A DNA stretch of 64,000 nucleotides from Agromyces humatus. GTDB lineage: Bacteria > Actinomycetota > Actinomycetes > Actinomycetales > Microbacteriaceae. The stretch's first letter is position 1. Every line of letters starts with the position of its first letter. Positions 848 to 63,286 of this stretch are shown in pieces. A program made the translations under genes and the position numbers. The notes beneath the pieces were generated by a model that searched no databases, had not been told where the DNA came from, and saw only the letters and a list, made by a program, of their open reading frames with translations. The stretch covers positions 372,001 through 436,000 of the forward strand of contig NZ_JAJQPD010000003.1 of the NCBI RefSeq assembly GCF_021228295.1, in the 5' to 3' direction.

Positions 848-1771
848 ATGGCGACGATCGCATGGATCGGTTTGGGCAACATGGGCGGTCCGATGACCGC
901 GAACCTGGTCGAGGCCGGCCACGAGGTCGTGGGATTCGACCTCGACGCCCGAGCGAACGAGGCCGCCGCCGCGCACGGCGTGCGCATCGCGACATCCGTC
1001 GCCGATGCCGTCGGCGGTGCCGGCGCGGTGTTCACGATGCTGCCGAAAGGCGAGCACGTGCGCGGCGTCTACGACGGCGACGGTGGTGTGTGGGCGAACG
1101 CGCCGGCGACGGCCCTGCTCCTCGACAGCTCCACCGTCGACATCGAGACCTCGCGATACTGCCACGAGGCATCGGCCGAGCGGGGGTTCCGTTTCGTCGA
1201 CGCGCCCGTCTCGGGCGGCATCTCGGGCGCTGCCGCAGGCACCCTGACGTTCATGCTCGGCGGCGCCGAGGCCGATGTCGCCGCCGCGAAGGTTCTCGTC
1301 GAGCCGATGGCCGGCAACGTCTTCGCCGTCGGCGGCGCCACCCAGGGCATCGCAGCGAAGCTCGCCAACAACATGATGCTGTTCATCTCGCTCGTCGCCG
1401 CGGCCGAGGGCTCGCAGCTGGCGTCGAGTCTCGGCATCGACCCGCAGATCTTCTGGGACATCGCGCGTGTCTCGTCGGCCGACTCGTGGGCCTTGCGCAC
1501 CTGGTACCCGGTGCCCGACGTCGTCGAGTCGTCGGCGGCGAATCGCAACTTCGACGCGACCTTCGCGACCACGCTCGCGCTCAAGGACGTGGCGCTCGCG
1601 CTGGGGGCCGGCGACGCCGCCGGGCTCAGCCTGCCCGCCGCGCAGCTCGCCCGCGAGCAGTTCGAGCAGCTCATCGCCGAGGGGCTCGGCGGCAAGGACT
1701 GCAGCCTCATCGCCAAGCTCGTCCACCCCGACGGCGCCGTCGCCGGCTACGAGCCGGCTTCAGCGGGTTGA
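848..1771 (+). CDS. mmsB: 3-hydroxyisobutyrate dehydrogenase-type NAD(P)-dependent oxidoreductase
   Basis: A 307-aa beta-hydroxyacid dehydrogenase. The N-terminal Rossmann motif is IAWIGLGNMGGPMTANL, the substrate-binding segment DAPVSGGISGAAAGTLTFMLGG, and the catalytic-lysine segment GIAAKLANNMMLF (residues about 170-185). ATG 848 is preceded by AAGGAGGA at a good distance. The gene sits directly before a methylmalonate-semialdehyde dehydrogenase, the classic valine-catabolic pairing: 3-hydroxyisobutyrate to methylmalonate semialdehyde, then to propionyl-CoA. A tartronate-semialdehyde reductase is a possible alternative from the same family. A close paralogue lies at 4684-5601. The last codons and the stop (GCG GGT TGA) lie inside the repeat element starting at 1764. 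Confidence 0.85.
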   Translation: MATIAWIGLGNMGGPMTANLVEAGHEVVGFDLDARANEAAAAHGVRIATSVADAVGGAGAVFTMLPKGEHVRGVYDGDGGVWANAPATALLLDSSTVDIETSRYCHEASAERGFRFVDAPVSGGISGAAAGTLTFMLGGAEADVAAAKVLVEPMAGNVFAVGGATQGIAAKLANNMMLFISLVAAAEGSQLASSLGIDPQIFWDIARVSSADSWALRTWYPVPDVVESSAANRNFDATFATTLALKDVALALGAGDAAGLSLPAAQLAREQFEQLIAEGLGGKDCSLIAKLVHPDGAVAGYEPASAG

Positions 1772-1909
1772 GGAGGAGCGAAGCGACGTCTCGAAACCCT
1801 GCCGCACATGCCCTGGGTTTCGAGACGGTCGCTGGCGCTCCCTCCTCAACCCGCTCGACGGCGCGTCTCGCGGTTTCGAGACGGTCGCTGGCGCTCCCTC
1901 CCCAACCCG
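1764..1909. repeat. GGGTTGAGGAG/TCTCGAAACCC palindromic intergenic repeat, copy 1
   Basis: The left arm (1764-1799, CGGGTTGAGGAGG...TCTCGAAACCC) pairs with a right arm at 1815-1853 (GGGTTTCGAGACGG...CTCCTCAACCCG). The right arm is then repeated almost exactly at 1872-1909. A very stable hairpin is predicted between the dehydrogenase and mmsA. The element begins before the stop codon of the upstream gene, so that TGA (1769-1771) belongs to the repeat. Related copies are at 34138-34233 and 62031-62165. Confidence 0.85.
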
Positions 1910-1935
1910 CCGATTCTTCGAAAGGAACCACAGAC

Positions 1936-3441
<1,506 letters not shown>

Positions 3442-3451: not shown

Positions 3452-4567
3452 GTGACCAGGCGCATCACCGGGGCGGTGCTCGAGGAGGTCGGGCGGGCGC
3501 GTCCGTTCGCGCAGTCGCGCCCGATCGGGGTCGTCGAGCTCGACCTCGACGGCCCCGGCCCCGACGAGCTGCTCGTGCGCATCGAGGCGGCCGGCATCTG
3601 CCACTCCGACCTCTCGGTGGTCGACGGCAACCGGGCGCGCCCGATGCCGATGCTGCTCGGCCACGAGGCCGCGGGCATCGTCGAAGAGGTCGGCGACGCG
3701 GCATCCGCTGCGGGGTTCTCCGTCGGCGACCGCGTCGTGATGGCGTTCCTGCCGCGGTGCGGTGAGTGCGACGGATGCCGCACCGGCGGCGTCATGCCGT
3801 GCGTGCCGGGCACGGCGTCGAACACGGCGGGAACGCTCTTCGACGGCAGCAGCCGACTGACGCGCGACGGCGTTCGCGTGCACCACCACCTGGGCGTCTC
3901 GGGGTTCGCGTCGCACGCGGTCGTCGATCATCGCTCGGCGGTCGTCGTGGGCCCCGACGTGCCGCCAGAGGTGGCGGCGGTGCTCGGCTGCGCCGTGCTC
4001 ACCGGTGGGGGCGCGGTCGTGAATGCGGGTGCGGCGAAGCCGGGCGACGACATCATGGTGGTCGGGCTCGGCGGCGTCGGCATGGCGGCGCTCATCACGG
4101 CGGTCTCGCTCGGGTACGGGCGGGTCATCGGCGTCGATGCGGTGCCCGAGAAGCTCGATCGGGCGCGCGAGCTCGGCGCCGACGCGGTGTACACGCCCGA
4201 TGAGGCTGCCGAGGCCGGGGTGCGAGCCGCGCTCGTGGTCGAGGCGGCCGGGCATCCCCGGGCGTTCGAGACCGCGTTCGCGCTCACCGCCCCGGGCGGG
4301 CGCACGGTGACCGTGGGCCTGCCGTCGCCGTCGGCCGTCTCGAACGTCTCGCCGCTCACCGTCACGGCGGAGGCGCGCACGATCGTCGGCAGCTACCTCG
4401 GATCGGCGGTGCCATCACGCGACATCCCGCGCTACGCCGAGCTGTGGCGGCAGGGCCGCCTGCCCGTCGAGGCGCTCATCTCGTCGTACGTCACGCTCGA
4501 CGACATCAACGAGGCGATGGACACCCTCGCCGACGGGCAGGCGATCCGCCAGGTCATCCGCTTCTGA
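3452..4567 (+). CDS. Zn-dependent medium-chain alcohol dehydrogenase
   Basis: A 371-aa MDR-family enzyme starting with GTG 10 bp after mmsA. Catalytic-zinc ligands appear in GICHSDLS and the GHEAAGIVEEVG motif. The structural-zinc lobe CGECDGCRTGGVMPC carries four cysteines, and the NAD-binding fold is VVGLGGVGMAALITAV. It resembles class-III-like alcohol/aldehyde dehydrogenases. Substrate is not readable from sequence; the operon suggests oxidation of an alcohol or aldehyde that feeds into the semialdehyde pathway. Confidence 0.85.
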   Translation: MTRRITGAVLEEVGRARPFAQSRPIGVVELDLDGPGPDELLVRIEAAGICHSDLSVVDGNRARPMPMLLGHEAAGIVEEVGDAASAAGFSVGDRVVMAFLPRCGECDGCRTGGVMPCVPGTASNTAGTLFDGSSRLTRDGVRVHHHLGVSGFASHAVVDHRSAVVVGPDVPPEVAAVLGCAVLTGGGAVVNAGAAKPGDDIMVVGLGGVGMAALITAVSLGYGRVIGVDAVPEKLDRARELGADAVYTPDEAAEAGVRAALVVEAAGHPRAFETAFALTAPGGRTVTVGLPSPSAVSNVSPLTVTAEARTIVGSYLGSAVPSRDIPRYAELWRQGRLPVEALISSYVTLDDINEAMDTLADGQAIRQVIRF

Positions 4568-5613: not shown

Positions 5614-6093
5614 TCAGGCGCCGGCGCGCACCGCGTCGATGACCTCGGTGAGGTGGTCGCGCAGCACGCCGAGCTCGTCGAGGCTCATGCCGAGCCGATC
5701 GACGACCTGCGGAGGAATGTCGAGCGCGCGCTCGCGAAGCGCGCGGCCCTCGTCGGTGAGGGCGACATCGAGCGCGCGCTCGTCGCGTGCGTTGCGGTGC
5801 CGGGTGACGTAGCCCTGCGCCTCGAGGCGTTTCAGCAGCGGCGAGAGCGTCGCCGGCTCGAGCTGCAGCGCCTCGCCCAGGTCGCGCACGGTGCGCGGGT
5901 TGCGCTGCCAGAGCGCGAGCATGACGAGGTACTGCGGATGCGTCAGCCCGAGTGGCTCGAGGATCGGCCGGTAGAGGCCGATGACACCGCGGGCGGCGAC
6001 CGCGAGGGCGAAGCACACCTGGTTCTCGAGGGCGAGCAGGTCGTCGGATGTCGCGGGCCCCGCGGTCTCTGAACGCGTCGTGAGTTCGGTCAT
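5614..6093 (-). CDS. MarR-family transcriptional regulator
   Basis: A 159-aa protein with a typical MarR winged helix: LTHPQYLVMLALWQRNPRTVRDLGEALQLEPATLSPLLKRLEAQGYVTR, with the wing RNARDERALDVALTDEGRAL. Length matches the family. No single conserved OhrR-type N-terminal peroxidatic cysteine is obvious, although CFALAV contains one cysteine near residue 28, so a redox-sensing OhrR-like role cannot be excluded. It diverges from the small protein at 6154, and a perfect palindrome of MarR type lies between them at 6137-6148, indicating autoregulation. Confidence 0.88.
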   Translation of the reverse strand: MTELTTRSETAGPATSDDLLALENQVCFALAVAARGVIGLYRPILEPLGLTHPQYLVMLALWQRNPRTVRDLGEALQLEPATLSPLLKRLEAQGYVTRHRNARDERALDVALTDEGRALRERALDIPPQVVDRLGMSLDELGVLRDHLTEVIDAVRAGA

Positions 6094-7766: not shown

Positions 7767-8432
7767 ATGGCCTTCTGGCGCAAGCGGCCGAAGCGCCGAT
7801 TCCGTGCGTTCGACCGCAGCGAACTGCCCGAAGCACCCCAGCCGTCGTTCGACGACATGCTCGCGGAAGGCCTGATGGTCGCCGAGGCGGCGGCACGGAT
7901 GTCCCTGCGCAACCGATTCGTCATGCACGCGCTGCGCGGCGAAGAGCCGTATGAGCCCGAGCGCGCGTCGGCCGCGGCTCGCGAGGCGCTCTACGAACTC
8001 GTGCAAGAGGCCGAAGAAGTCGCCGAACGCACCGCCGACGAGCGCGAGGCGGCCGCGCGCCGTGAAGGTCGCAGCTCGCACGAGCACGACTACCGTCGCG
8101 CCGACGGCCCGAACCTGCGGCGACGCGAGAAGGTCTACGCCGCGATCTCCACCGAGCTCTGGAAGCGCCGCAGCGATCCCCAGTACCTCGCCGCGCTCGC
8201 CGAGCGCGCACGCGAAGAGGCCTGGGAGGAAGTGGCCGGGGCGATCGACGCCCGTCTCGCGCGCGAGTGGGGCGAGTGGCCGCAGATCGAGGTCGACGAG
8301 ACCTACGAGGCCGAACGTGAGGTTCGCGTGCACGACCTGCTCGCCGACCTCGACCGCGACGTGCGCGCGGCCGAGGACGAGCGGGCCCGGCGGGCCGAGG
8401 CGGCCGATCCGTTCCGCGGGTACGTCGGCTGA
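7767..8432 (+). CDS. Conserved-looking acidic/basic helical protein, function unknown
   Basis: A 221-aa soluble protein beginning MAFWRKRPKRRFRAFDRSE. It has a basic N-terminus, then long charged helices rich in Glu/Arg/Ala (EAEEVAERTADEREAAARREG; DLDRDVRAAEDERARRAEAADPF), likely coiled coil. Aromatic residues are scattered (HEHDYRRADGPNLRRREKVYAAI). No signal peptide, membrane segment or catalytic motif is seen. It ends 1 bp before the convergent arsR-arsC gene. I do not recognise a family. Confidence 0.7.
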   Translation: MAFWRKRPKRRFRAFDRSELPEAPQPSFDDMLAEGLMVAEAAARMSLRNRFVMHALRGEEPYEPERASAAAREALYELVQEAEEVAERTADEREAAARREGRSSHEHDYRRADGPNLRRREKVYAAISTELWKRRSDPQYLAALAERAREEAWEEVAGAIDARLAREWGEWPQIEVDETYEAEREVRVHDLLADLDRDVRAAEDERARRAEAADPFRGYVG

Positions 8433-8433: not shown

Positions 8434-9414
8434 CTACGCCATGCCGTAGCTCGGCTCGCGAACGATGCCGAGTTCGTCGAGCAGTGCGCGCACGCGCTGT
8501 TCGACGTCGTCGCGGATGACGCGAACTCGGGCAAGAGACTGGCCGGCAGGGTCGTCGAGCTCCCAGTCGAGGTACCGGCGACCGGGGTACACCGGGCACG
8601 CGTCGCCGCAACCCATGGTGATGACGAGGTCGGCGGCACGGACGACCTCGTCGGTCAGGGGCTTGGGGAACTCGTTGCCGATCGGCGCACCGATCTCGTC
8701 GAGTGCATCGATGATCGTCGAGCGCAGGGCGCGCACCGGCCTGGAGCCGGCGCTGCGCACGTGCACGCGATCACCCGCGAGGTGCTTGAGGATCGCAGCG
8801 CCGAGCTGCGACCGACCCGAGTTCTGCACGCAGACGAACAGCACCTCGAGGGGAGCGCCGGCCGCAGGCTCGGACCGGGCCGTCGCGACTGCGACCAGCC
8901 GGTCGGCGGCCCACTGCGCGGTCTCGGCGGCGGTGTCGCGCACGCCGTCGCCCGGCGCATCGTGGCCCGGCGCGTCGTGGTCGGACGTGAACCGGTCGTG
9001 TGCGATGTCGCCGCGAGCGGCGAGCAGGTCGTGGCTCTCGCGAACGTAGCGGCCCACCGTTTCAGGGGCGAACACGCCCTCGAACCGGTCTGCGAGTTCG
9101 GATGCCACGCGCGCGAGCACCTCGTCGGGTGCGTGCGCGGGGACATCGGGGCGCAGCAGATCGTCGACTCGGCGGGTGGCAGACGGCGCGATCGAGCACC
9201 AGACGCGTCCGCCCTCAGTCGAGCACTCGATGACGCCCTCGGAGACGAGCGCACCGATGTGCTGGCTCACGGTGGGTTGTGCCGCGCCGATCTCGTCGAC
9301 CAGCCGACCCACATGGGTGCGCCCGCCGGCGCTCTCGCGGATGACTCCGAGCATGCGCAGCCGAATCGGATCGGTGAGCAGTCGGATGCGCCGGGCCTCG
9401 GTCGATCGATTCAT
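8434..9414 (-). CDS. ArsR-type regulator fused to arsenate reductase / low-molecular-weight phosphatase
   Basis: A 326-aa fusion. Residues 1-90 are an ArsR winged helix (EAQRIRLLTDPIRLRML-like segment, then AAQPTVSQHIGALVSEGVIECS). Residues about 95-145 are the helical bundle often found N-terminal to such reductases (FEGVFAPETVGRYVRESHDLL). Residues about 187-320 are the catalytic domain with the phosphate loop CVQNSGR at Cys195 and GCGDACPVYPGRRYLDWELDDP. This fits thioredoxin- or mycothiol-linked arsenate reduction. The regulator part lacks the classic ELCVCDL arsenite site; Cys64 and Cys73 are candidate ligands. No arsenite exporter is adjacent. Confidence 0.85.
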   Translation of the reverse strand: MNRSTEARRIRLLTDPIRLRMLGVIRESAGGRTHVGRLVDEIGAAQPTVSQHIGALVSEGVIECSTEGGRVWCSIAPSATRRVDDLLRPDVPAHAPDEVLARVASELADRFEGVFAPETVGRYVRESHDLLAARGDIAHDRFTSDHDAPGHDAPGDGVRDTAAETAQWAADRLVAVATARSEPAAGAPLEVLFVCVQNSGRSQLGAAILKHLAGDRVHVRSAGSRPVRALRSTIIDALDEIGAPIGNEFPKPLTDEVVRAADLVITMGCGDACPVYPGRRYLDWELDDPAGQSLARVRVIRDDVEQRVRALLDELGIVREPSYGMA

Positions 9415-10888: not shown

Positions 10889-13024
10889 CTACTCGCCCGA
10901 CGGATGCGCCCCCGCCGCGTCGATCACCCACGCGTACGCGAACGCCCGCTCGCGCCACGCCGAGTACCGCCCCGACACCCCGCCGTGTCCGGCCGCCATC
11001 TCGATCTTCAGCAGCGGGTCGGCTCCGACCTCTCGCAGCTTCGCCACCCACTTCGCCGGCTCGACGTAGAGCACGCGCGTGTCGTTCAGCGACGTCACGG
11101 CGAGGATTCGCGGGTAGTGGTTGACGTGTACGTTCTCGAGCGGCGAGTACGACCGCATGTACGAGTAGACCTCTTCGTCGTCGAGCGGGTTGCCCCACTC
11201 GTCCCACTCGATCACGGTGAGCGGCAGCGACGGGTCGAGGATCGAGGTCAGCGGGTCGACGAACGGCACCTCGGCGAGGAACCCCGAGAAGTACCGCGGC
11301 GCGAGGTTCGCGACCGCACCGATGAGCAGGCCGCCGGCGCTGCCGCCCTGGGCGACGAGCCGGTCGGGCGCGGTGAAGTCTTCATCGATGAGGTGCCGCG
11401 CCGCGGCGATGAAGTCGGTGAAGGTGTTGCGCTTCTCGAGCTTCTTGCCGTGCTCGTACCAGAGCCGGCCCATCTCGCCGCCGCCGCGCACGTGCGCGAC
11501 CGCGAAGATCATGCCGCGATCGAGCAGCGAGAGCCGCGGAATGCCGAAGCCGGGGTCGATCGAGTGCTCGTACGACCCGTAACCGTACAAGAGGGTCGGC
11601 GCGGGCTCGCCGAGGGTGACGAGATCGTGCCGGTACACGAGCGAGATCGGCACGCGGGTGCCATCGGAGGCGGTGGCCCACTCGCGACGCTGCGCGTAGC
11701 GGGTCGCGTCGTAGTCGCCGAGCACGGGCTGGCGCTTGCGCAGCTTGCGCTCGCCGGTGGCCACGACGACGTCGTAGACGGTCGACGGCGTCACGAAGCT
11801 CGTGTAGCCGATGCGCAGGGTCGGCTGCTCCCACGCGGGGTTGCCGCCGACGCCGACCGAGAAGAGCGCCTCGTCGAACGAGAGTTCGTGCAGGGTGTCG
11901 TCGGGCGTTGCATCGGCGGGCAGCCCCTGCGGCGGCACCTTCGCGATCGCGACGCGCGGCAGTCCCTCGCGCCGGTACTCGATGGAGACGAAGTCGCGGA
12001 ACGCGTCGACGCCCTCGATGCGCACCGCGGGATCGTGCGGCAGCAGCATCCGCCGTGCCCCCTGCGGATCGGATGCCGCAACGCTGACCAGCTCGAAATT
12101 CACCGCGTCGTCGTTGTGCACGATGAGCAGCCGGTCCCTTCCGCCGGCGACGACGTGCTCGACGTCGTACTCCACCCCGTCTTTGCGCGGCCAGACCACG
12201 CCGAACTCGCCGGTGGGGTCGGCGGCGTCGAGCAGCCACGACTCGCTCGTGACGTTCGACCCGGCCTCGATCATGAGGAAGCGGCGGCTGCGGGTGAGGC
12301 CCACGCCGAGCCAGAACCGCTCGTCGGGTTCGTGGAAGACCGAGACGTCGTCGGATGCCTCGGTGCCGACCTCATGCCGCCAGATCGTGTCGGGGCGCCA
12401 CGACTCGTCGACGGTCGCGTAGAAGAGGTGGCGGCCGCTCGGGTCGAAGACCGCCCCCGCCGCGGTGCCCTCGATGACGTCGGTATAGGCGCGGTCGGTG
12501 CCGTCGATGGCCCGCAGCCGGATCGTGTAGCGCTCGTCGCCCTCGACGTCGACGCCGTAGAGCATGGTCGATCCGTCGGCCGTGATGTCGAAGCTGCCGA
12601 GCGAGTAGAACTCGTGGCCCTCGGCCTCGACGTTGTCGTCGAGCAACACCTGCTCGCCCGGCAACGGCGCGCCCGACTCATCGGTCTCCGGGGGTTCCCA
12701 GTCGTCGGGCGAGGCGACCGGCACCCGGCAGTGGATGCCGTACTGCTGGCCCTCGACGGTGCGCGTGTAGTACCACCAGTCGCCCTCACGGGTGGGCACG
12801 CTGAGGTCGGTCTCTTTCGTGCGCGCCTTGATCTCGTCGAAGAGCTGCTCCTGCAGGATCGCGAGGTGCTCGGTCTTCGCCTTCGTGTACGCGTTCTCTT
12901 CATGCAGGTGGGCGACGACCTCGGGATCGTCCTTCGCGCGCAGCCACTCGTAGTCGTCGACGTAGACGTCGCCGTGGTGCACGCGTTCGATCGGTCGCTT
13001 GGCTGTCTTCGGCGGAGTGAGCAC
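10889..13024 (-). CDS. ptrB: Oligopeptidase B (S9A prolyl oligopeptidase family)
   Basis: A 711-aa cytosolic serine peptidase cleaving short peptides after basic residues. The N-terminus (KRPIERVHHGDVYVDDYEWLR) and seven-bladed propeller are followed by an alpha/beta-hydrolase domain. The catalytic residues can be placed: Ser562 in QGGSAGGLL, Asp648 in SLNDTRVLYVEP and His680 in GHGGVSGRY. The segment VAHVRGGGEMGRLWYEHGK is typical of oligopeptidase B. Length matches the family. The start lies 62 bp from the iron box at 13086, which more likely serves the divergent gene at 13119. Confidence 0.93.
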   Translation of the reverse strand: MLTPPKTAKRPIERVHHGDVYVDDYEWLRAKDDPEVVAHLHEENAYTKAKTEHLAILQEQLFDEIKARTKETDLSVPTREGDWWYYTRTVEGQQYGIHCRVPVASPDDWEPPETDESGAPLPGEQVLLDDNVEAEGHEFYSLGSFDITADGSTMLYGVDVEGDERYTIRLRAIDGTDRAYTDVIEGTAAGAVFDPSGRHLFYATVDESWRPDTIWRHEVGTEASDDVSVFHEPDERFWLGVGLTRSRRFLMIEAGSNVTSESWLLDAADPTGEFGVVWPRKDGVEYDVEHVVAGGRDRLLIVHNDDAVNFELVSVAASDPQGARRMLLPHDPAVRIEGVDAFRDFVSIEYRREGLPRVAIAKVPPQGLPADATPDDTLHELSFDEALFSVGVGGNPAWEQPTLRIGYTSFVTPSTVYDVVVATGERKLRKRQPVLGDYDATRYAQRREWATASDGTRVPISLVYRHDLVTLGEPAPTLLYGYGSYEHSIDPGFGIPRLSLLDRGMIFAVAHVRGGGEMGRLWYEHGKKLEKRNTFTDFIAAARHLIDEDFTAPDRLVAQGGSAGGLLIGAVANLAPRYFSGFLAEVPFVDPLTSILDPSLPLTVIEWDEWGNPLDDEEVYSYMRSYSPLENVHVNHYPRILAVTSLNDTRVLYVEPAKWVAKLREVGADPLLKIEMAAGHGGVSGRYSAWRERAFAYAWVIDAAGAHPSGE

Positions 13025-21556: not shown

Positions 21557-21582
21557 GTGCCTTCCGCCAGGGACATCCGATC

Positions 21583-41302: not shown

Positions 41303-41335
41303 GGGGTTCGGATGCCGCGACGTCGCGGCCCGACG

Positions 41336-44590: not shown

Positions 44591-44626
44591 CGGATGTCGC
44601 GCGAGGGCCGAGCCCCGCGGCATCCG
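44591..44626 (+). terminator. Intercistronic stem-loop between binding protein and permease genes
   Basis: CGGATGTCGCG (44591-44601) pairs with CGCGGCATCCG (44616-44626), 11 bp with one G-U-type mismatch and a 14-base loop, in the 138-bp gap. A partial terminator or 3' stabiliser would raise binding-protein levels. Both arms contain the recurrent octamer. Confidence 0.6.
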
Positions 44627-51828: not shown

Positions 51829-52524
51829 TCAGAAGAGGCGTGCATGCCCGCCGTCGACGCCCCGCATCGCGTCGTAGTCGAGGACCAGGCAGCGGATGCC
51901 CCGGTCCTCGGCGAGGGTGCGAGCCTGGGGTTTGATCTCCTGGGCTGCGAATACCCCGGTCACTGGCGCAATGCGAGGGTCGCGGTTCATGAGCTCGAGG
52001 TAGCGGGTGAGCTGCTCGACGCCGTCGATGTCGCCGCGGCGTTTGAGTTCGACCGCCACGCTCCCGCCGGTGGGGTCGGTCGCGAGGATGTCGACCGGAC
52101 CGATCGCGGTCATGTATTCACGGCGCACGAGCCGATGACCCTCGCCGAGCAGCTCGATCTGCTCGGCGAGCAGCTTCTGCAGGTGCGACTCGACGCCGTC
52201 CTTGACGAGCCCGGGATCGATGCCGAGCTCGTGCGACGAGTCGTGCAGCACCTCGTGGATCGACACGATGAGCTGGTCGGCGGTCTTCTGGTGCGTGACG
52301 TTCCAGATCTCGGTGATGCCGACCGCGACCTGGTCGTCGTCGGGCTCGGCGGTCGTGAGCGTGCACGGCGGGCTCATCCAGTTGAGCGGCTTGTAGCTGC
52401 CGCCGTCGGAGTGCACGAGCAGGCTGCCGTCGCCCTTGACCATGAGCAGCCGCGTGGCGAGCGGCAGGCGGGCGGAGAGGCGCCCCGCGTAATCGACGGA
52501 GCAGCGGGCGATGACGAGACGCAC
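51829..52524 (-). CDS. nucS: Mismatch-specific endonuclease NucS (EndoMS)
   Basis: A 231-aa enzyme that cuts both strands at mismatches and replaces MutSL in actinobacteria. The N-terminal domain ([42 protein letters not shown]) binds DNA. The RecB-like nuclease core shows [16 protein letters not shown] and [23 protein letters not shown] with Asp, Glu and Lys catalytic residues. The C-terminal HARLF matches the sliding-clamp-binding tail of the family. Length is standard. Confidence 0.95.
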
Positions 52525-52650: not shown

Positions 52651-53907
52651 TCAGGCTCCGGTGCGCGCCCGCGGGCCCGAGCGTTCCCGTGCCGCGGGCG
52701 CCGCGAGCCCCGCCAGCGCCATGAGCCCGAGCAGCAGGATGAGTCCGTTGAGGATCCCGAACACCTCGCCGAGGAACCCGATCAGGGGCGGGCCGACCAG
52801 GAAGGCGCAGTAGCCGATCATGGCGACGGCGCTGACGCGAGCCGCGGCATCCGCTCGATCGGGAACGTCGGCCGCAGCCGACATGCCGACCGGGAACGCG
52901 AGCGAGCAGCCGATGCCCCAGAGCACCGTGCCCGTGACGATCATCCACGGCTCGCTCGAGAAGATGAACAGCGCGAGGCCTGCGACGCCGATGATCGACA
53001 TGCTCTGCAGCATCGCGACGCGGCCGAACCGGTCGATGAAGGGTCCGCCGAGCACGCGGGCAGTGGTGATGGCGATCGTGAACACCGTGAACATGGCGGC
53101 GCCGGCGGTCTGGTCGAGGCCGTGCCCGTCGACGGCGGCGATGGCCAGCCAGTCGTTGGCACTGCCCTCGGCGAACGACATGCCGAGCATGACGACGCCG
53201 ATGAGCAGCAGGCGCGGGTCGGCCCAGACGCGAAGGCTGCGCCGCAGACGAACACCCCACGGCTCGCGCGGTGCGTCGGTGTGCGGGTCGTCACCCAGCT
53301 CTTCACGTACCGGCACGAACCGCACGGCGATGATCGCCGTCACCGCGATGAGGGCGGCGATGATCGCGAGGTGCGTCAGCACGGGCAGACCGACGGCGGA
53401 TGCCGCGACCGCGAGTGATGCGCCGGCGACCGTGCCGAAGCTGAAGAACGCGTGCATGAGCGGCATCACCGTCTTGCCGAGCTCGCGTTCGGCTTCGGCC
53501 CCTTCGACGTTCATCATGACGTCGACCGCCCCGTTGCCGAATCCGAACAGCGCGAGGCCGACCACGACGAGCGTCACCGACGGCGCGACGGATCCGCCGA
53601 TCCCGATCAGCACGAGTCCTGCCGCGACGATCACCAGCACGCCCGACATGCCGAGCCGGGCGCCGAAGCGGGCCATGATCCAGGGCGCGCCGATGAGCCC
53701 GAGGATCGAACTGATCGACATCGCGAGGATGACGAGACCCACGCCCTGCGTGCTGACGCCGATCTCGTCGCGAATCGCCGGAAGCCGCGCCACCCAGCTC
53801 GCGAGACTCAGCCCTGACAGGAAGAAGATCGTGAAGATCGCATTGCGCCACGCGACGAGCTCGCGGGTCGGGCGGGCGGCGGCCGTGGGGCGGGGAGTTT
53901 CGGTCAT
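52651..53907 (-). CDS. MFS transporter (YbjJ/FucP-like)
   Basis: A 418-aa permease with about 12 helices: ARTRELVAWRNAIFTIFFLSGLSLASWVARLPAIRDEIGVSTQGVGLVILAMS, then GLIGAPWIMARFGARLGMSGVLV and a central cytoplasmic loop near 190-215. It resembles the YbjJ group of MFS proteins, some of which carry sugars. ATG 53907 is 33 bp from a 22-bp perfect palindrome (53941-53962), indicating tight transcriptional control. Substrate unknown. Confidence 0.82.
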   Translation of the reverse strand: MTETPRPTAAARPTRELVAWRNAIFTIFFLSGLSLASWVARLPAIRDEIGVSTQGVGLVILAMSISSILGLIGAPWIMARFGARLGMSGVLVIVAAGLVLIGIGGSVAPSVTLVVVGLALFGFGNGAVDVMMNVEGAEAERELGKTVMPLMHAFFSFGTVAGASLAVAASAVGLPVLTHLAIIAALIAVTAIIAVRFVPVREELGDDPHTDAPREPWGVRLRRSLRVWADPRLLLIGVVMLGMSFAEGSANDWLAIAAVDGHGLDQTAGAAMFTVFTIAITTARVLGGPFIDRFGRVAMLQSMSIIGVAGLALFIFSSEPWMIVTGTVLWGIGCSLAFPVGMSAAADVPDRADAAARVSAVAMIGYCAFLVGPPLIGFLGEVFGILNGLILLLGLMALAGLAAPAARERSGPRARTGA

Positions 53908-54170: not shown

Positions 54171-55439
54171 ATGCTCCGTACCACCACCGGTCGCACCGTC
54201 GCGGCCCTCGCTGCTTCCGCGGCGGCACTGCTCGCCCTGAGCGCCTGTTCGTCGGGTTCCGGCACGAGCTCATCCGACGACGTCACGATCTCGTACGGCA
54301 TCTGGGACCAGAACCAGCAGCCCGCCATGGAGGAGATCGCCGAAGCATTCACGGCCGAGCACCCGAACGTCACCGTCGAGATCCAGCTCACGCCGTACAA
54401 GGAGTACTTCACCAAGCTCCAGACCTCGGTGTCGGGCGGCGCCGCCCCCGACGTGTTCTGGATGAACGGACCCAACTTCCAGCTCTACGCATCGAACGGC
54501 GTGATCGCGCCGCTCGACGACCAGGGCGTCGAGGCATCCGACTACCCGCAGGGCCTCATCGACCTCTATACCTACGACGGATCGCTCTACGGGGTGCCGA
54601 AGGACTTCGACACCGTCGCCCTCTGGTACAACACCGAGCTGTTCGACGCCGCCGGGGTCGAGTACCCGAGTGCGGGCTGGACGTGGGACGACCTGAAGGC
54701 CGCCGCGGCGAAGCTCTCCGACCCGGCCGCCGGCGTCTACGGCATCACCGCCACCCAGTACGGCCAGGAGAACTACTACAACTCCATCGCCCAGGCCGGC
54801 GGCGAGGTCATCAGCGCCGACGGCACCGAGTCGGGCTACGGCAGCTCAGAGGCGCTCGAGGGCATCACGCTCTGGACGGACCTCATCGCTGCGGGGTCAT
54901 CGCCGACCGCACAGCAGATGACCGACACCGCAGCCGAGGACTTCTTCATCTCGGGCAAGGCGGCCATGTTCCAGAACGGCTCGTGGGCCGCGATCGCGTA
55001 CGCCGAGAACCCCGACCTCGCCGAGAAGGTGAACGTCGCACCGCTGCCCGCGGGTGCCGACGGCAACCAGAGCGTCATCCACGGCATCGGCAACGTCGCG
55101 AACGCGAAGAGCACCAACCTCGACATCGCCAAGGAGTTCGCCGCGTTCGCGAGCGGCGAGCAGGCCGCCGCGATCCAGTCCGAGTCGGGCACCGTGATCC
55201 CCGCCTTCAACGGATCGCAGCAGGCCTGGGTCGACGCGCTCCCGCAGTACGACCTTCAGGTCTACATCGATGCCCTCGAGAGCGCCGTGCCATACCCCGT
55301 GTCGAAGAACACCGCGGCATGGACCGCCCTCGAGAGCGAGATCCTCTCGCAGGTCTGGGCCGGAACGGTCTCGCCCGAGGACGGCCTGACGCAGCTCGCC
55401 GAAGAGATGCAGGCGGCACTCGACGCGGAGTCGGAGTAG
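54171..55439 (+). CDS. Sugar ABC transporter substrate-binding lipoprotein (family 1)
   Basis: A 422-aa lipoprotein with lipobox LSAC (Cys25) followed by a Ser/Gly linker. The mature part (VTISYGIWDQNQQPAMEEIAEAFTAEHPNVTVEIQLTPYKEYFTKLQTSVSGGAAPDVFWMNGPNF) is typical of CUT1 oligosaccharide-binding proteins. The exact sugar is not readable. First gene of a four-gene operon with tight or overlapping junctions. Confidence 0.9.
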   Translation: MLRTTTGRTVAALAASAAALLALSACSSGSGTSSSDDVTISYGIWDQNQQPAMEEIAEAFTAEHPNVTVEIQLTPYKEYFTKLQTSVSGGAAPDVFWMNGPNFQLYASNGVIAPLDDQGVEASDYPQGLIDLYTYDGSLYGVPKDFDTVALWYNTELFDAAGVEYPSAGWTWDDLKAAAAKLSDPAAGVYGITATQYGQENYYNSIAQAGGEVISADGTESGYGSSEALEGITLWTDLIAAGSSPTAQQMTDTAAEDFFISGKAAMFQNGSWAAIAYAENPDLAEKVNVAPLPAGADGNQSVIHGIGNVANAKSTNLDIAKEFAAFASGEQAAAIQSESGTVIPAFNGSQQAWVDALPQYDLQVYIDALESAVPYPVSKNTAAWTALESEILSQVWAGTVSPEDGLTQLAEEMQAALDAESE

Positions 55440-56418: not shown

Positions 56419-57328
56419 CCTGACCCTGACCGAAGACCTGTCGACCCGAGCGGTCGTCGCGGGACCGACCACCCCCGCGGCATCCGCTTCGCCCGTTCGT
56501 CGCGGGCGACGCACCGGAGGCGGCAACTGGATCGTGCACCTCCTGCTCGGCTTCGGCGCCGTCGTGATGGTGTTCCCGTTCGTGTGGCAGGCCCTCACCG
56601 CGTTCAAGACGTTCCAGGACTCGGTGCAGGTGCCGCCCGTGGTCATCCCCGACCCGTGGGTGTTCACCAACTTCGTCGAGGTGTTCGACTCGATGCCGTT
56701 CGCCCAGATGTTCGCGAACTCGGTCCTGCTCACCATCGGCCGCACCGTCGGGCAGGTCATCCTGTGCACGATGGCGGGCTACGCATTCGCCCGCATCCCG
56801 TTCAGGGGGCGCAACGTCGTGTTCGTCGTGTTCCTCTCGGTGCTCATGGTGCCGTCGCAGCTGTACCTGCTGCCGCAGTACGAGATCATCCAGTCGCTCG
56901 GCTGGCTGAACACCCTGCAGGCGCTCATCGTGCCCGGCATCTTCAGCGCCTTCGGCACGTTCCTCATGCGCCAGTTCTTCATGTCGATGCCGGTCGAGCT
57001 CGAAGAGGCGGCCCGCATCGACGGGGCCAACCCGTGGCAGACGTTCTGGCGGGTCATGGTGCCGCTCGCGAAGCCCGGCATCATCGCGCTCACCGTGTTC
57101 ACCGTGCTGTGGTCGTGGAACGACCTGCTGTGGCCGCTCGTCGTGACGACCGACCCCGAGAAGATGCCGCTCTCGGTGGGTCTGTCGCAGCTCGTCGGCC
57201 TGCACGGCACTGACTACCCTGTGCTCATGGCCGGCGCACTGCTCGCGACGCTGCCGATGCTGATCACGTTCATGATCCTGCAGAAGCAGTTCATCCAGGG
57301 CATCGCGTTCTCCGGGACGAAGGGGTGA
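56411..57328 (+). CDS. Sugar ABC transporter permease (MalG-like)
   Basis: A 305-aa partner permease with about 6 helices and the EAA loop PVELEEAARIDGANPWQTFWRVMVPLAKPGIIALTVFTVLWSWNDLLWPL. ATG 56411 overlaps the MalF-like gene by 8 bp. The long open frame upstream is only a shadow. Its stop overlaps the GTG of the LacI gene (GTGA). Confidence 0.92.
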   Translation: MSDLTLTEDLSTRAVVAGPTTPAASASPVRRGRRTGGGNWIVHLLLGFGAVVMVFPFVWQALTAFKTFQDSVQVPPVVIPDPWVFTNFVEVFDSMPFAQMFANSVLLTIGRTVGQVILCTMAGYAFARIPFRGRNVVFVVFLSVLMVPSQLYLLPQYEIIQSLGWLNTLQALIVPGIFSAFGTFLMRQFFMSMPVELEEAARIDGANPWQTFWRVMVPLAKPGIIALTVFTVLWSWNDLLWPLVVTTDPEKMPLSVGLSQLVGLHGTDYPVLMAGALLATLPMLITFMILQKQFIQGIAFSGTKG

Positions 57329-58455
57329 CGCGGATGACGCAGGCGAACGAGTCCGACCGCGACCGCGCGACGCGATCGACCGGTGCGAACGGTACCGGCG
57401 CGAACGGCGCCGCGCGCCGCCGGCCCACGCTTCGCATGGTCGCCGACCTCGCCGGGGTCTCGACCGCCACCGTCTCGTACGTGTTCTCGGGTCGGGGCGG
57501 CGGCGGTTCGGGCGTCGCCGAGCACACGGCCGCGCGCGTGCACGCCGCCGCCCGCGAGCTGAACTACCGGCCGAACCGTGCCGCGCGCACGATCCGTACG
57601 GGTCGCAGCGACACCGTGCAGCTCTCGCTGCACATGCTGAGCGACCCGTGGTCGCTCGCCGTCGCCGCGGCGGTCAACGAGGAGGCGAACCGGCACGGGC
57701 TCACGACGCTGATCCTCGCCGACGGCGACTGGTACGCCGCGCTCGACCGTGTCGAGAGCGACGTCGCCTACCTCGACGGGGCGGTCGACACCGACGACGG
57801 CAAGCGCAAGCTCGCCTCGCTCGTGGAGCGCGGCCAGCGGCTCGTCGTGTTCTCGGAGACGCTCGAGCCCGAGGGGTACGACGTGATCCGCTCCGACGCG
57901 ATTCCCGGCTGCCACCTCGCGATGGACCACCTGCTCGAACGCCACACGGCGATCGGATGCCTCGTCGCCGAGGCCGCGTTCAGGGCGACGGGCCGTTCGC
58001 GATACACGCCATACGTCGAACGCCTGCGGTCGCGCGGACTGCCGGTGATCCCGTCGCACACCGCGACCTTCACCGAGACGCAGGCGAGCGCGTTCACTGC
58101 AGCGGTCACGCTGCTCTCGCAGCCTGAGCGGCCGACCGCGATCTACGCCACGACCGACTTCGCCGCGATCGCGGCGATCAACGCGGCGCACATGCTCGGG
58201 CTTCGGGTGCCGCACGACGTCGCCGTCATCGGTGTCGGCAACACGCCCGATGCCCGCCTCGTCTCGCCCACGCTGACCACCGTCGGCCCGACCGACTTCT
58301 ACGAGCGGCAGGCCGAGATCATCGTCGCCCGAGCGCTCGAATCCCACACCGAGGAGCCCCGGCTCCACGACTTCCGCTGGTCGCTCGTCATGGGCGGCTC
58401 GACCGATCTCGACACGCCGCCGCGCACGCCCCGCCTGCGCGAACGCGACGCGTAA
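57325..58455 (+). CDS. LacI-family regulator of the second sugar operon
   Basis: A 376-aa protein. Its helix-turn-helix (LRMVADLAGVSTATVSYVFSGRGGGGSGVAEHTAARVHAAARELNYRPNRAARTIRTGRS) has an unusual glycine-rich insertion (RGGGGSG) in the segment after the recognition helix. The start is GTG 57325 coupled to the permease; ATG 57334 is an alternative. It is embedded in the transporter operon, so it presumably senses the imported sugar and acts at 54100-54113. Confidence 0.87.
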   Translation: MTRMTQANESDRDRATRSTGANGTGANGAARRRPTLRMVADLAGVSTATVSYVFSGRGGGGSGVAEHTAARVHAAARELNYRPNRAARTIRTGRSDTVQLSLHMLSDPWSLAVAAAVNEEANRHGLTTLILADGDWYAALDRVESDVAYLDGAVDTDDGKRKLASLVERGQRLVVFSETLEPEGYDVIRSDAIPGCHLAMDHLLERHTAIGCLVAEAAFRATGRSRYTPYVERLRSRGLPVIPSHTATFTETQASAFTAAVTLLSQPERPTAIYATTDFAAIAAINAAHMLGLRVPHDVAVIGVGNTPDARLVSPTLTTVGPTDFYERQAEIIVARALESHTEEPRLHDFRWSLVMGGSTDLDTPPRTPRLRERDA

Positions 58456-58477: not shown

Positions 58478-59695
58478 GTGGATCTGAACATCGGCATCGT
58501 CGGCTTCGGCGCGCGCGCCTCACTCTGGACCGAGGCACATCGTCCGGGCCGCGGCTCCCGCGTCGTCGCCGTCTGCGACCCCGCCGAGCGCGCCCGCGCC
58601 GACGCGCGCACGGCGCTGCCCGAGGCATCCGTCACCGAATCGCTCGACGAGCTGCTCGCGATGGGACTCGACGCCGTCATGGTGCTGACCCCCGACCACC
58701 AGCACGCGCCCGTCGCGATCGCCGCGCTCGAGGCCGGCGTGCCGGTGTTCTGCGAGAAGCCGCTCGCAGTGACCGTCGGCGACGCCGACGCGATCCTCGA
58801 GACCGCGCGCCGCACCGGCACCAAGCTCTACGTGGGCCACAACATGCGGCACATGTCGGTCGTGGTGCTCATGCGCCGGCTCATCCACCAGGGGCGCATC
58901 GGCGAGGTGAAGGCCATCTGGTGCCGCCACTTCGTCGGCAACGGCGGCGACTACTACTTCAAGGACTGGCACGCCGAGCGCGAGAAGACCACCGGCCTGC
59001 TGCTGCAGAAGGGCGCGCACGATCTCGATGTCATCCATTGGCTTGCGGGCGCGTACACGACCGAGGTGCAGGCGATGGGGTCGCTGAGCGTCTACGGCGA
59101 CGTCGGCGACCGGCGCGACCGGTCGGGCGAGCGTATGCGCGACTGGTTCAGCCTCGACAACTGGCCCCCGGCCGCGCAGACGGGGCTCAACCCCGTGATC
59201 GACGTCGAGGACATCTCGATGGTGAACCTGCGGCTCGGCAACGGCGTGCTCGCCTCGTACCAGCAATGCCACTTCACGCCCGACTACTGGCGCAACTACA
59301 CGGTGATCGGCACCGAGGGTCGCATCGAGAACTTCGGGGATGTCTCGGGGTCGGAGGTGCGGCTCTGGAATCGGCGTCACCACGGGGCGGCGCCCGCCGA
59401 CGAGACCTTCATCGTGCCCGAGTCGCCCGAGGATGTCGGTCACGACGGCGCCGATGCGCTGCTCGTCGCCGAGTTCCTGCGATTCGTGCGCGACGGCGGG
59501 CTCACCGAGACCTCGCCGGTGGCCGCGCGCGAGGCGGTCGCGGTCGGCATCCGTGCGACGGAGTCGCTGCGCGGCGACGGGGGCTCGCTCGCCGTGCCGC
59601 CGCTCGAGCCCGACCTCGTCGCCTACTTCGAGGGCGGTCAGGTCGAGTCGGCAGCGCTGGGTCGTCTGATCGACTCGCGCCGCTACGATGGCTGA
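58478..59695 (+). CDS. Gfo/Idh/MocA-family oxidoreductase
   Basis: A 405-aa NAD(P)-dependent sugar or inositol dehydrogenase: Rossmann start [15 protein letters not shown], family motif [20 protein letters not shown] and active-site region [18 protein letters not shown] with Lys and His. GTG 58478 has GAAGGAG 9 bp before it. It lies 22 bp after the LacI gene, so it probably oxidises the sugar imported by 54171-57328. Confidence 0.88.
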
Positions 59696-60824: not shown

Positions 60825-62021
60825 ATGTACGGAACGGTTCGCGACCAGCTTCGCGCCGAACTCGACGAGATCGAGGCCGCCGGCCTCACGAAGCGCGAAC
60901 GCGGCATCCACGGCCCGCAGTCCTCGCAGATCGAGGTCGCCGGGCGCGAGGTGCTGAACTTCTGCGCCAACAACTACCTCGGGCTGGCGAACGACCCGCG
61001 CATCGTCGCCGCGGCGCATCGGGGCCTCGACGAGTGGGGGTACGGCCTCGCGAGCGTGCGGTTCATCTGCGGAACGCAGGAGCTGCACCTCGAACTCGAA
61101 CGCCGGGTGTCGGAGTTCCTCGGCTACGACGACACGATCCTGTTCTCGTCGTGCTTCGATGCGAACGGCGGGGTCTTCGAGGTGCTCTTCGGGGCCGACG
61201 ACGCGATCATCAGCGATGAGCTCAACCACGCCTCGATCATCGACGGCATCCGCCTGTCGAAGGCGCAGCGGTTCCGCTACAAGAACCGCGACCTGGCCGA
61301 CCTCGAGGCGCAGCTCATCGCGGCAGCCGGCGCGCGCCGCCGCGTGATCGTCACCGACGGGGTCTTCTCGATGGACGGCTACATCGCGCCGCTCGCCGAG
61401 ATCTGCGATCTGGCCGACCGGTACGACGCGCTCGTCTTCGTCGACGACTCGCACGCCGTGGGCTTCGTCGGCGAGCACGGGCGCGGCACGCCCGAGTACT
61501 GCGGCGTCGAGGGCCGGGTCGACATCACGACCGGCACGTTCGGCAAGGCCCTCGGCGGAGCATCCGGCGGCTATGTGGCCGCGCGCGCCGAGATCGTGGC
61601 GCTGCTGCGCCAGCGCGCCCGGCCGTACCTCTTCTCGAACACGCTCGCGCCGGCGATCGTCGCCGGCACGATCGAGGCGCTGCAGCTCGTCGCGGGCTCC
61701 GGCGAGCTGCGTGACCGACTGCAGGCGAACGCGGCGCTGTTCCGTGCGCTCATGGAGGCCGAAGGCTTCGACCTGCTGCCCGGCGAGCACCCGATCGTGC
61801 CCGTCATGTTCGGTGACGCCGCGCTCACGGCTCGCATCGCCGACGCGCTGCAGGCGCGCGGTGTGTACGTGACGGCGTTCAGCTTCCCGGTGGTGCGGCG
61901 GGGACTCGCGCGGATCCGCGTGCAGCTTTCGGCCGCGCACTCCGCGGAGGAGATCCGTCGCTGCGTCCAGGCGTTCGCGGCCGCGCGCGACGAGGTGGCT
62001 GTGGGCGCCGCGGCCGAGTAG
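60825..62021 (+). CDS. kbl: Glycine C-acetyltransferase (2-amino-3-ketobutyrate CoA ligase)
   Basis: A 398-aa PLP enzyme converting 2-amino-3-ketobutyrate and CoA to glycine and acetyl-CoA. Motifs: [91 protein letters not shown], and the Schiff-base Lys241 in [14 protein letters not shown]. Adjacent to tdh. Repeat copy 3 begins 10 bp after its stop. Confidence 0.95.
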
Positions 62022-62030
62022 CCTCTCGCC

Positions 62031-62193: not shown

Positions 62194-62205
62194 CGAATCG
62201 ATTCG
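62194..62205. promoter_or_regulatory. LacI-type operator before the regulator at 62222
   Basis: CGAATCGATTCG is a perfect 12-bp palindrome 17 bp upstream of the start codon, so autoregulation is likely. The identical core lies within the 22-bp palindrome at 53941-53962. Confidence 0.65.
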
Positions 62206-62221
62206 GCCTAGAATCGGGCGC

Positions 62222-63286
62222 ATGCAGTCCGATGAGCTCGCCCGACCCACGCTCGCCGACGTCGCGGCCCGCGCCGGCGTGTCGGCATCGACCGCCTCGC
62301 TCGCCTTCAGCGGCTCCGGCCCGGTGTCTGATGCCACCAAGGAGCGAGTGCTCGCGGCCGCCGCCGACCTCGGCTATGCGGGGCCCGACCCGCGCGCCCG
62401 GTCGCTGCGCCGCGGCCGCTCGGGCATCGTCGGCGTCGTGCTCGAGGAACGCATCCGGGATGCCTTCCTCGATCCCGTGAACATCCAGATGCTCGACGGC
62501 ATCACCGAGGGCATCGCGCCGCTCGGCGCGGGACTGCTGCTCCTGACCGACACCGGCGAGGCGGGCGGCAACGCCGTCGGCATCGAGAGCGCGCCGGTCG
62601 ACGCCGTCGTGCTCATCGGGTGCAGCCCGCGCCTGGGTCACTCGGTCGAGGCACTGCGTCGTCGCGGCATCCCGGCGGTCGCCATCGAAGGCGCGGCCGG
62701 CGAGGACATCCCCGAGATCTCGATCGACAACCGCGAGGCCACGAGGCGCGGGGCCGAGTACCTGCGCGAACTCGGGCACACGGATGTCGCGCTCGTGACA
62801 CTCCCGTTCGACGCCGACCGCACTCGGGGCGAGCTGACCCCCGAGCTCATCGCCGGAAGCACCGCCGACACCGCGAGCGAGCGGCTCGCCGGAGCCCGGC
62901 TGGTATTCCCCGACGCCGGCGGTCGCGTGGCCGCGACGAGCTCGATCGAAGAGGGCCGAGAGGCCGGGCTCACCCTGCTGGCCGACTCGGCGACCCGCCC
63001 AACGGCGATCATCGCCCAGAGCGACCTTCTGGCAGCCGGGGTCATCAACGCGGCTGAAGAGCTCGGCATCGCCGTGCCCGCCGAGCTCAGCGTGCTCGGA
63101 TTCGACGGCATCCGCGTCGACGGTTTGCAGCACGACCTCACGACGCTGGCCCAGCCTTCGGTCTCGAAGGGCAGGGCGGCCGGTGAGGCCGTCGTGCAGT
63201 TGCTCGCCGGTCGCCCGGGCGAGTCGGTGTGCTTCACGAGCACCCTGCACGTCGGCGACACGACGGCCGTGCCGCACCACCGCTGA
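62222..63286 (+). CDS. LacI-family transcriptional regulator
   Basis: A 354-aa protein. Helix-turn-helix: TLADVAARAGVSASTASLAFSGSGPVSDATKERVLAAAADLGYAGPDPRARSLRRGRS; effector domain with GVVLEERIRDAFLDPVNIQMLDGITEGI and ELSVLGFDGIRVDGLQHDLTTLAQP. ATG 62222. It is followed by a subtilase gene on the same strand but separated by about 120 bp. It may control the MFS gene at 52651-53907 because both share the operator core. Confidence 0.88.
   Translation: MQSDELARPTLADVAARAGVSASTASLAFSGSGPVSDATKERVLAAAADLGYAGPDPRARSLRRGRSGIVGVVLEERIRDAFLDPVNIQMLDGITEGIAPLGAGLLLLTDTGEAGGNAVGIESAPVDAVVLIGCSPRLGHSVEALRRRGIPAVAIEGAAGEDIPEISIDNREATRRGAEYLRELGHTDVALVTLPFDADRTRGELTPELIAGSTADTASERLAGARLVFPDAGGRVAATSSIEEGREAGLTLLADSATRPTAIIAQSDLLAAGVINAAEELGIAVPAELSVLGFDGIRVDGLQHDLTTLAQPSVSKGRAAGEAVVQLLAGRPGESVCFTSTLHVGDTTAVPHHR

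Follow-up and report, generated by a model that had tools for sequence, protein, structure and literature searches.

What keeps one short DNA word in many copies, on both strands, of an actinobacterial chromosome? The question is raised by a stretch of the Agromyces humatus genome (Microbacteriaceae; assembly GCF_021228295.1, contig NZ_JAJQPD010000003.1, positions 372,001 to 436,000), here called the window, which is 64,000 nucleotides (nt) long and in which the octamer CGGATGYC, or GRCATCCG where it lies on the opposite strand, is strongly over-represented. A first-pass annotation had singled out this octamer and suggested either a DNA-uptake-type sequence or a bias tied to a modification system. 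We report that the octamer is part of a longer word, CGGATGYCNCG, which is under selection or drive at the DNA level, and we put at about one half the probability that this word serves part of the Microbacteriaceae as a self word of the DNA-uptake type.

Results

Abundance of the word in the window and in the genome

The window contains 60 copies of CGGATGYC, 30 on each strand (Table 1). The first-pass annotation had placed roughly 50 copies between 991 and 62788; it was right about the abundance and about the even split between strands, but the number was too low and the last copy lies at 63107-63114. The seven copies that it had located are exact: those at 991, 3700 and 25706 read GRCATCCG, and those at 3772, 14110, 23708 and 34066 read CGGATGYC. 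An order-2 Markov model of the window, with both strands counted, predicts 6.4 copies of CGGATGCC and 2.7 of CGGATGTC, where 40 and 20 were observed; about 9 copies are thus expected for both forms, where the first-pass annotation had expected only a few from base composition. The whole genome (4.04 Mb in 16 contigs) holds 3136 copies of CGGATGYC (1675 + 1461), against 226 (131 + 95) of a reversed control word that is not codon-matched.

Further counts were made on a 455 kb sample consisting of the window and 20 other stretches, about 11% of the genome. There, no 8-mer has a higher z-score under an order-3 model than CGGATGCC (264 observed versus 52.3 expected), and the flanks of the 403 sample copies of CGGATGYC extend the word, with C at +9 in 339 of them and G at +10 in 261. 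The full word is therefore CGGATGYCNCG; it is non-palindromic and occurs 1862 times in the A. humatus genome, or 461 times per Mb.

Excess beyond codon usage

Genes were called with a simple script of our own and synonymous codons were shuffled among the called genes. In the 46 genes of the window, CGGATGYC is found 49 times, against 8.0±2.3 after shuffling (maximum 16 in 1000 shuffles). The 377 genes of the 455 kb sample hold 304 coding copies, against 81.8±6.9 (100 shuffles) or, when codons were shuffled within genes instead, 85.3±7.9; for CGGATGYCNCG the excess is 9-fold (183 versus 20.5±3.7, 100 shuffles). These shuffles, in the window and in the sample, rule out composition or codon usage as the cause, and the octamer does override codon preference, as had been claimed. 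All six codon registers are occupied in the sample (CGGATGYC on the coding strand 19, 98 and 10 times; GRCATCCG 58, 18 and 101 times), which excludes a dipeptide effect confined to one frame. Copies show a mild preference in their orientation along genes (127 versus 177), and they are denser between genes (1.51 per kb) than within them (0.78 per kb).

The length of the selected unit can be read from words that miss the consensus at one flank. Relative to the codon shuffle, GGATG with one wrong flank stays near background (AGGATGCC, 34 versus 30.9; CGGATGCG, 62 versus 46.2), while the consensus CGGATGCC is found 204 times against 49, indicating that selection acts on the long word and not on GGATG, which as a unit by itself is ruled out. 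The same counts bear on the modification-linked half of the first-pass suggestion, which we consider quite improbable. Such a word would resemble HIP1 (highly iterated palindrome 1) of cyanobacteria or a methyltransferase target; the very high copy number does recall HIP1, and the core GGATG is given as a known type IIS recognition sequence in the accessible part of PMC6097692. However, GGATG with other flanks is not comparably enriched, several conserved positions fall outside any short target, and the Agromyces word is non-palindromic, whereas HIP1 (GCGATCGC), which shares its extreme over-representation, is described in the available part of PMC4390886 as a palindrome linked to two methyltransferases.

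Among 8-mers that differ from the word at one position, depletion relative to the codon shuffle is seen chiefly at position 4, for all three alternative bases (0.25-, 0.26- and 0.46-fold), with the largest deficits for CGGACGCC (30 versus 119) and CGGAGGCC (28 versus 107); neighbours at other positions are mostly undepleted (mostly 0.8-2.0-fold). With its other positions fixed, each of the ten defined positions of the 11-mer carries its consensus base in 71-94% of cases in A. humatus, in 77-96% in a second Agromyces genome (G004) and in 82-98% in a third (G047), and partial words are therefore rare in A. humatus and G047.

Conservation of the word in Agromyces cavernae

Maintenance of the word was assessed on 122 kb of A. 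humatus sequence aligned to Agromyces cavernae at 91% identity; the two species share 92% identity in the M17 aminopeptidase encoded in the window. The word is kept at 90 of 115 aligned A. humatus copies and, in the reverse direction, 97 of 116 A. cavernae copies are the word in A. humatus, against 51-52% of ordinary 8-mers unchanged in the same alignment, a background not matched for reading frame. In a frame-matched test, 175 of 187 third codon positions inside the word are conserved, where the same codons elsewhere predict 126.5. Codons that are rare are conserved when they lie inside the word (GCA 17/18, 29% elsewhere; GAT 20/22, 42% elsewhere; ACA 5/6, 26% elsewhere; TCC 22/24, 70% elsewhere). 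These results indicate that the word is maintained and not merely produced, and that selection or drive acts on it at the DNA level, as the first-pass annotation had proposed from its use of more than one reading frame. Where the stretches examined align to A. cavernae, the 11-mer reaches 0.62 per kb; in their unaligned remainder its density is 0.34 per kb.

A functionless mutational or codon-pair bias is, in the light of this conservation, hardly credible. It could draw on the general favour for GATGCC (1.7-fold over the order-3 model, word copies counted in), on the concentration of the largest neighbour deficits at position 4 and on the mostly undepleted neighbours elsewhere, where a plain pull from all neighbours would predict depletion. 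Yet position 4 is depleted for all three alternative bases and not for C alone, the full 11-mer holds its consensus at each of ten positions in 71-94% of cases, five of six tested phages that grow in Microbacterium have no excess of the word, and over-conservation extends to third positions apart from the one that turns into T (97/104 versus about 83, summed by hand over nine codon rows).

Taxonomic distribution and dialects

The 11-mer was counted in several sets of genomes. It is present in all 48 other Agromyces genomes searched (528-3740 copies), against 16-115 copies in 31 genomes from other families of the order. Across 299 Microbacteriaceae genomes, six of them Agromyces and A. humatus included, counts outside Agromyces run from 0 to 1389, with 0-15 in several genera whose genomes are smaller than 2 Mb. 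In a class-wide draw of 374 genomes, 18 of them Microbacteriaceae, the other 356 all stay at or below about 32 copies per Mb (densities calculated by hand), compared with 461 in A. humatus. A set of named genomes, which partly overlaps the 48 Agromyces and 31 other-family genomes, gave 1556-3299 copies in Agromyces (n=8), 884 in Microterricola pindariensis, 237-854 in Microbacterium (n=3), 654 in Leifsonia flava, 267 in L. poae, 103 in L. aquatica, 45-53 in Leucobacter (n=2) and 37-50 in Arthrobacter (n=2). The complete 11-mer was not found in the sequence samples from Leucobacter, Arthrobacter and other families. Enrichment is thus restricted to the Microbacteriaceae among the genomes searched, and within this family there are genera with a strong signal and genera with none.

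Around a common core, the loose positions (Y and N) differ among Agromyces species, that is, the word has dialects. In A. humatus the Y position is C in 65% of copies and T in 34%; G047 favours CGGATGCCGCG, and in G004 the most over-represented 11-mer is CGGATGCCTCG (85 versus 1.4 expected). The excess in G022, the poorest Agromyces genome, sits on GGATGCC with little preference at the flanks. A pool of Microbacterium sequences favours the shorter core GGATGCCG, and CGGATGCCG is preferred in Microterricola and in a pool of Leifsonia flava, Leifsonia sp. Root4 and Glaciibacter flavus. The octamer GYGGATCG, mildly over-represented in genus g75 (L032-L036, L180, L181) and found at 0.27 per kb in A. 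humatus, may be a distant dialect or may be unrelated.

Two local observations were made in relatives. In Agromyces albus (L048) a stretch of 64% GC around the M17 gene carries 2.8 copies per 20 kb, with a genome total of 2619 11-mers; this word-poor stretch looks recently acquired. A different repeat, CCCCGCTACGCG / CGCGGGGAGC, is present in about 55 copies in 108 kb pooled from Klugiella, Mycetocola and Subtercola loci (L119, L126, L096, L099, L113).

Strand, spacing and inverted pairs

The word has no strand polarity in the window, in the A. humatus genome or in G004. On contig C1 of A. humatus, copies lie on both strands beyond 58 kb as well. In 15 stretches around the single contig of G004, the G-rich strand carries 136 copies and the C-rich strand 147, a count in which the weak GC skew of G004 leaves the replichores not sharply defined. 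A guide for a DNA translocase, of the KOPS type (FtsK-orienting polar sequences), would be expected to show strong polarity, which the balanced strands of the window and G004 do not display; the first-pass annotation had likewise argued against KOPS- or Chi-like polarity.

Pooled over A. humatus and G004, spacing is near-random, with a dispersion close to Poisson at about one copy per kb. The exception is pairs closer than 50 bp, of which there are 72 against 34 expected. Within 80 bp, A. humatus has 29 convergent, 9 divergent and 11 tandem pairs. Among 24 convergent pairs whose starts lie within about 45 bp of each other, six fall between convergent genes and seven between co-directional genes, and these 13, read by hand, are all at most 40 bp from a stop codon; one more lies between divergent genes, three at stretch edges and seven inside genes. 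Folding gives strong hairpins for all three inverted pairs of the window (z -6.9, -6.5 and -3.0).

A chromosome-organising or nucleoid protein that is abundant and confined to part of the Microbacteriaceae could, if it bound the word, also account for the following features: the spacing is near-random at about one per kb, there is no orientation, the whole word is conserved, and copies are denser between genes. Against this explanation, which we regard as distinctly unlikely, an 11-bp non-palindromic word in thousands of copies is unlike the nucleoid proteins familiar to us, and the low counts in relatives (Leucobacter 45-53, Leifsonia aquatica 103) would imply that such a system is easily lost.

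Phages that carry the word

The phage Owens (MN428064, L156), a 17.4 kb Paopuvirus of Microbacterium foliorum, contains 15 copies of CGGATGYC where 1.7 are expected (codon shuffle, 15 versus 3.8±1.4) and 25 copies of GGATGCC where 3.1 are expected (codon shuffle, 24 versus 9.7±2.2), the latter divided 9 and 16 between strands. Seven relatives or near-copies of Owens from IMG/VR (L208-L214) have 15-22 GGATGCC in about 15 kb. The most distant of them (82% identity) keeps 4 of 17 aligned sites, which does not exceed background, and still has 15 GGATGCC, so copy number is conserved more than position; four closer aligned relatives keep 17-18 of 21-23 sites, against a background of 64-70%. The Owens lineage as a whole has GGATGCC, the core of the host word, on both strands at a density of about 1.0 to 1.4 per kb, and its sites turn over.

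No excess is seen in five further Microbacterium phages with genomes of about 40-46 kb (Min1, Brahms, IndyLu, Quenya and Stoor), which have 15 CGGATGYC against 16.2 expected over the regions counted (46 kb for Min1, the first 20 kb for each of the others); Brahms, IndyLu, Quenya and Stoor encode a Cas4-family or other exonuclease. In two small Arthrobacter phages the counts are 0 and 1. A scan of IMG/VR for inverted pairs returned 26 contigs, most of which contain little of the word apart from the pair by which they were picked, the best being L191 (13 versus 2.2), and a search by phage integrase gave only three Microbacterium records.

The word-rich phage would be best explained by the main rival of an uptake role, a Chi-like word for an enzyme other than RecBCD. 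An end-resecting helicase-nuclease, for example of the AdnAB or AddAB type, would stop degradation at the word and start recombination there, and small phages without a shield would carry the word to survive. The word-rich Owens, set against five larger phages without excess of which four have exonuclease genes, fits this account, as do the distant relative that keeps few sites and yet has 15 GGATGCC, and the higher density of the word in DNA shared with A. cavernae. The account sits badly with the missing polarity, since in E. coli Chi is nearly confined to the leading strand and is read by RecBCD, according to the accessible part of PMC8022716. The word is also longer and denser than Chi, given there as 8 nt at about one per 5 kb, and it is absent in many genera. 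RecC (PF04257) was found in none of the 299 family genomes, with a positive E. coli control, which speaks against the E. coli type of system and, together with the balanced strands, rules out RecBCD-Chi. A Chi-like word for another enzyme, likened to Chi by its over-representation, its density in shared DNA and a possible benefit to phages, is in our estimate unlikely.

Competence and pilus genes

A check for com and pil genes, of the kind to which the first-pass annotation had pointed, found ComEA (SLBB and helix-hairpin-helix) and ComEC (Competence and beta-lactamase fold) as a gene pair on A. humatus contig C2. A Flp/Tad cluster on C3 encodes Flp pilin, TadE, RcpC, a ParA-like ATPase that we take for TadZ, a TadA-type ATPase and T2SSF, with the Flp_Fap and RcpC matches just below the Pfam cut-offs; a second Tad/Flp cluster, on C12, encodes TadE, T2SSE and T2SSF.

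PilM is present in 144 of the 299 family genomes. With one genome per genus (n=83, counts entered by hand, the marginal match in G152 scored as absent), the median word density is 64.9 per Mb in PilM-positive and 22.0 per Mb in PilM-negative genomes (p 0.0005). The association drops to p 0.11 among genomes of at least 2.5 Mb, and 7 of the 23 genera with at least 100 copies per Mb have no PilM match. These values, and the five of six Agromyces without PilM, argue against a Neisseria-type pilus as the necessary reader. Of the six Agromyces genomes checked, G022 alone has type IVa pilus genes, namely PilM and, by score, a PilB-type ATPase.

Other repeats

A second, longer palindromic repeat of REP-like (repetitive extragenic palindrome) form, GTTTCGAGAC ... 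CTCCTCAACC and its inverse, occurs in the window at 1788-1830, 1872-1910, 34170-34210 and 62101-62170, and a related GTATCGAGACC form recurs elsewhere in the A. humatus genome and in a Microterricola locus (L121). Tandem arrays of AAGTGCCC are present in the A. humatus sample (L006 from 4650; L004 from 3991; L019 from 14145), with 30-odd copies of its 12-mers.

Table 1. Copies and inverted pairs of CGGATGYC in the window, with their fate in A. cavernae where given.
Feature	Position	Strand	Remarks
Word copy	991..998	-	GRCATCCG on + strand
Word copy	2866..2873	+	CGGATGYC
Word copy	3700..3707	-	GRCATCCG on + strand
Word copy	3772..3779	+	CGGATGYC
Word copy	6045..6052	+	sequence match
Word copy	7896..7903	+	sequence match
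Word copy	9099..9106	+	sequence match
Word copy	12070..12077	+	sequence match
Word copy	12352..12359	+	sequence match
Word copy	13357..13364	-	sequence match
Word copy	14110..14117	+	CGGATGYC
Word copy	14585..14592	-	sequence match
Word copy	14940..14947	+	sequence match
Word copy	15349..15356	-	sequence match
Word copy	17579..17586	+	sequence match; kept in A. cavernae
Word copy	20281..20288	+	sequence match; kept in A. cavernae
Word copy	20808..20815	-	sequence match; kept in A. cavernae
Word copy	21292..21299	+	sequence match
Word copy	21572..21579	-	sequence match; kept in A. cavernae
Word copy	22565..22572	-	sequence match; kept in A. cavernae
Word copy	22811..22818	-	sequence match; kept in A. 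cavernae
Word copy	22876..22883	+	sequence match; kept in A. cavernae
Word copy	23708..23715	+	CGGATGYC; kept in A. cavernae
Word copy	25706..25713	-	GRCATCCG on + strand; kept in A. cavernae
Word copy	26260..26267	-	sequence match; kept in A. cavernae
Word copy	29075..29082	+	sequence match
Word copy	29291..29298	-	sequence match
Word copy	30396..30403	+	sequence match; not kept in A. cavernae
Word copy	33893..33900	-	sequence match; not kept in A. cavernae
Word copy	34066..34073	+	CGGATGYC; kept in A. cavernae
Word copy	34502..34509	-	sequence match; kept in A. cavernae
Word copy	34985..34992	-	sequence match; not kept in A. cavernae
Inverted word pair, hairpin	36505..36544	36505 +, 36537 -	between divergent genes; both kept in A. 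cavernae; fold z -6.5
Word copy	37244..37251	+	sequence match; not kept in A. cavernae
Word copy	37834..37841	-	sequence match
Inverted word pair, 16-bp perfect stem	38207..38241	38207 +, 38234 -	between convergent genes, terminator-like position; fold z -6.9
Word copy	38349..38356	-	sequence match
Word copy	39368..39375	+	sequence match
Word copy	41309..41316	+	sequence match
Inverted word pair	44591..44626	44591 +, 44619 -	between co-directional genes, 38 bp past upstream stop; fold z -3.0
Word copy	45741..45748	+	sequence match
Word copy	46659..46666	+	sequence match
Word copy	47524..47531	-	sequence match
Word copy	47547..47554	+	sequence match
Word copy	48771..48778	-	sequence match
Word copy	51050..51057	-	sequence match
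Word copy	51893..51900	+	sequence match
Word copy	52846..52853	-	sequence match
Word copy	53397..53404	+	sequence match
Word copy	54533..54540	-	sequence match
Word copy	56479..56486	-	sequence match
Word copy	57954..57961	+	sequence match
Word copy	58624..58631	-	sequence match
Word copy	59546..59553	-	sequence match
Word copy	61245..61252	-	sequence match
Word copy	62781..62788	+	CGGATGYC
Word copy	63107..63114	-	sequence match

Discussion

Taking into consideration that (i) the word is long, non-palindromic and present in thousands of copies, on both strands and inside genes, (ii) it is restricted to one family and split into dialects, (iii) it has few near-misses and, in A. humatus, forms hairpin pairs near gene ends, and (iv) ComEA, ComEC and Tad/Flp genes are present, the uptake half of the first-pass suggestion fits best. 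The higher density of the word in DNA shared with A. cavernae is in keeping with this reading too. DNA that bears the word would be preferred by a receptor sited on the Tad/Flp pilus or at ComEA, with the Tad/Flp pilus, ComEA and ComEC as the likely route; DNA of the organism's own kind would then be taken up and recombined more frequently, and this bias would spread the word in either orientation through genes and gene ends and keep it there. A change in the receptor would change the dialect. To our knowledge, uptake words of this kind have been known only from Neisseriaceae and Pasteurellaceae, and no report of the word, or of an uptake word in Microbacteriaceae, was found among the titles and abstract openings listed in searches of the openly licensed PMC literature; on the best reading, this would be the first uptake-type self word in Actinobacteria known to us. 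More tentative is a fuller proposal, in which a Microbacteriaceae self word, split into dialects and read on the Tad/Flp pilus or at ComEA, has been copied by Paopuvirus Owens-like phages, so that the treatment of incoming phage DNA may depend on it too; this would be the first Gram-positive uptake-word system of which we are aware.

Several points weigh against an uptake role. We know of no demonstration of competence in Agromyces, although no search for it by name was made, and the word receptor is hypothetical. ComEC is found in 293 of the 299 family genomes, word-free ones included, and T2SSE ATPases in all 299; the presence of the machinery therefore does not explain which genera carry the word. 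PilM (PF11104) was not found in A. humatus, G004, G008, G023 or G040, and G022, its only carrier among the six Agromyces checked, is also the Agromyces genome poorest in the word. Single positions of the full 11-mer hold their consensus less firmly in the Microbacterium pool (54-89% per position) and in G022 (46-85%), and the excess of convergent pairs was not seen in 100 kb samples of G047 (3 convergent, 4 divergent, 0 tandem) or G022 (0, 0, 1). Finally, a word-dense lineage of Microbacterium phages is not obviously predicted by an uptake role.

The closest parallel is the DNA uptake sequence (DUS) of Neisseriaceae, which, as set out in the available part of PMC3630211, is likewise a non-palindromic word of about 10-12 bp in thousands of copies, restricted to a family in which some members lack it, with a shared core about which the species dialects vary; it also has inverted pairs, which are clear here in A. 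humatus. The Agromyces word is unrelated to it and belongs to Actinobacteria, its uptake role is proposed from genes and sequence, and the absence of a PilM match in five of six Agromyces sampled leaves no Neisseria-type pilus with ComP evident there. The uptake signal sequence (USS) of Pasteurellaceae occurs roughly once per 1-1.5 kb, on both strands and with few one-off variants, and in these three respects the Agromyces word is similar; word, phylum and pilus type differ. Arthrobacter and its relatives, which we take to be of the same family as Micrococcus luteus, are unlike Agromyces in being without the word. M. luteus itself is a high-GC actinobacterium that takes up DNA by Flp/Tad pili with comEA/comEC, so that ComEA, ComEC and Flp/Tad pili are common to both organisms, but no uptake word is mentioned for it in the accessible part of PMC6370729.

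If the word turns out to be Chi-like, we know of no earlier one for an actinobacterial recombination machinery; the word-carrying phage offers a direct handle for separating the two readings. If it is an uptake word, kin-selective DNA import would have arisen independently in Actinobacteria, with a different pilus. The word would then be of practical use as a tag in the transformation of recalcitrant laboratory strains, and it would help to explain gene flow in Agromyces, Microbacterium and their relatives.

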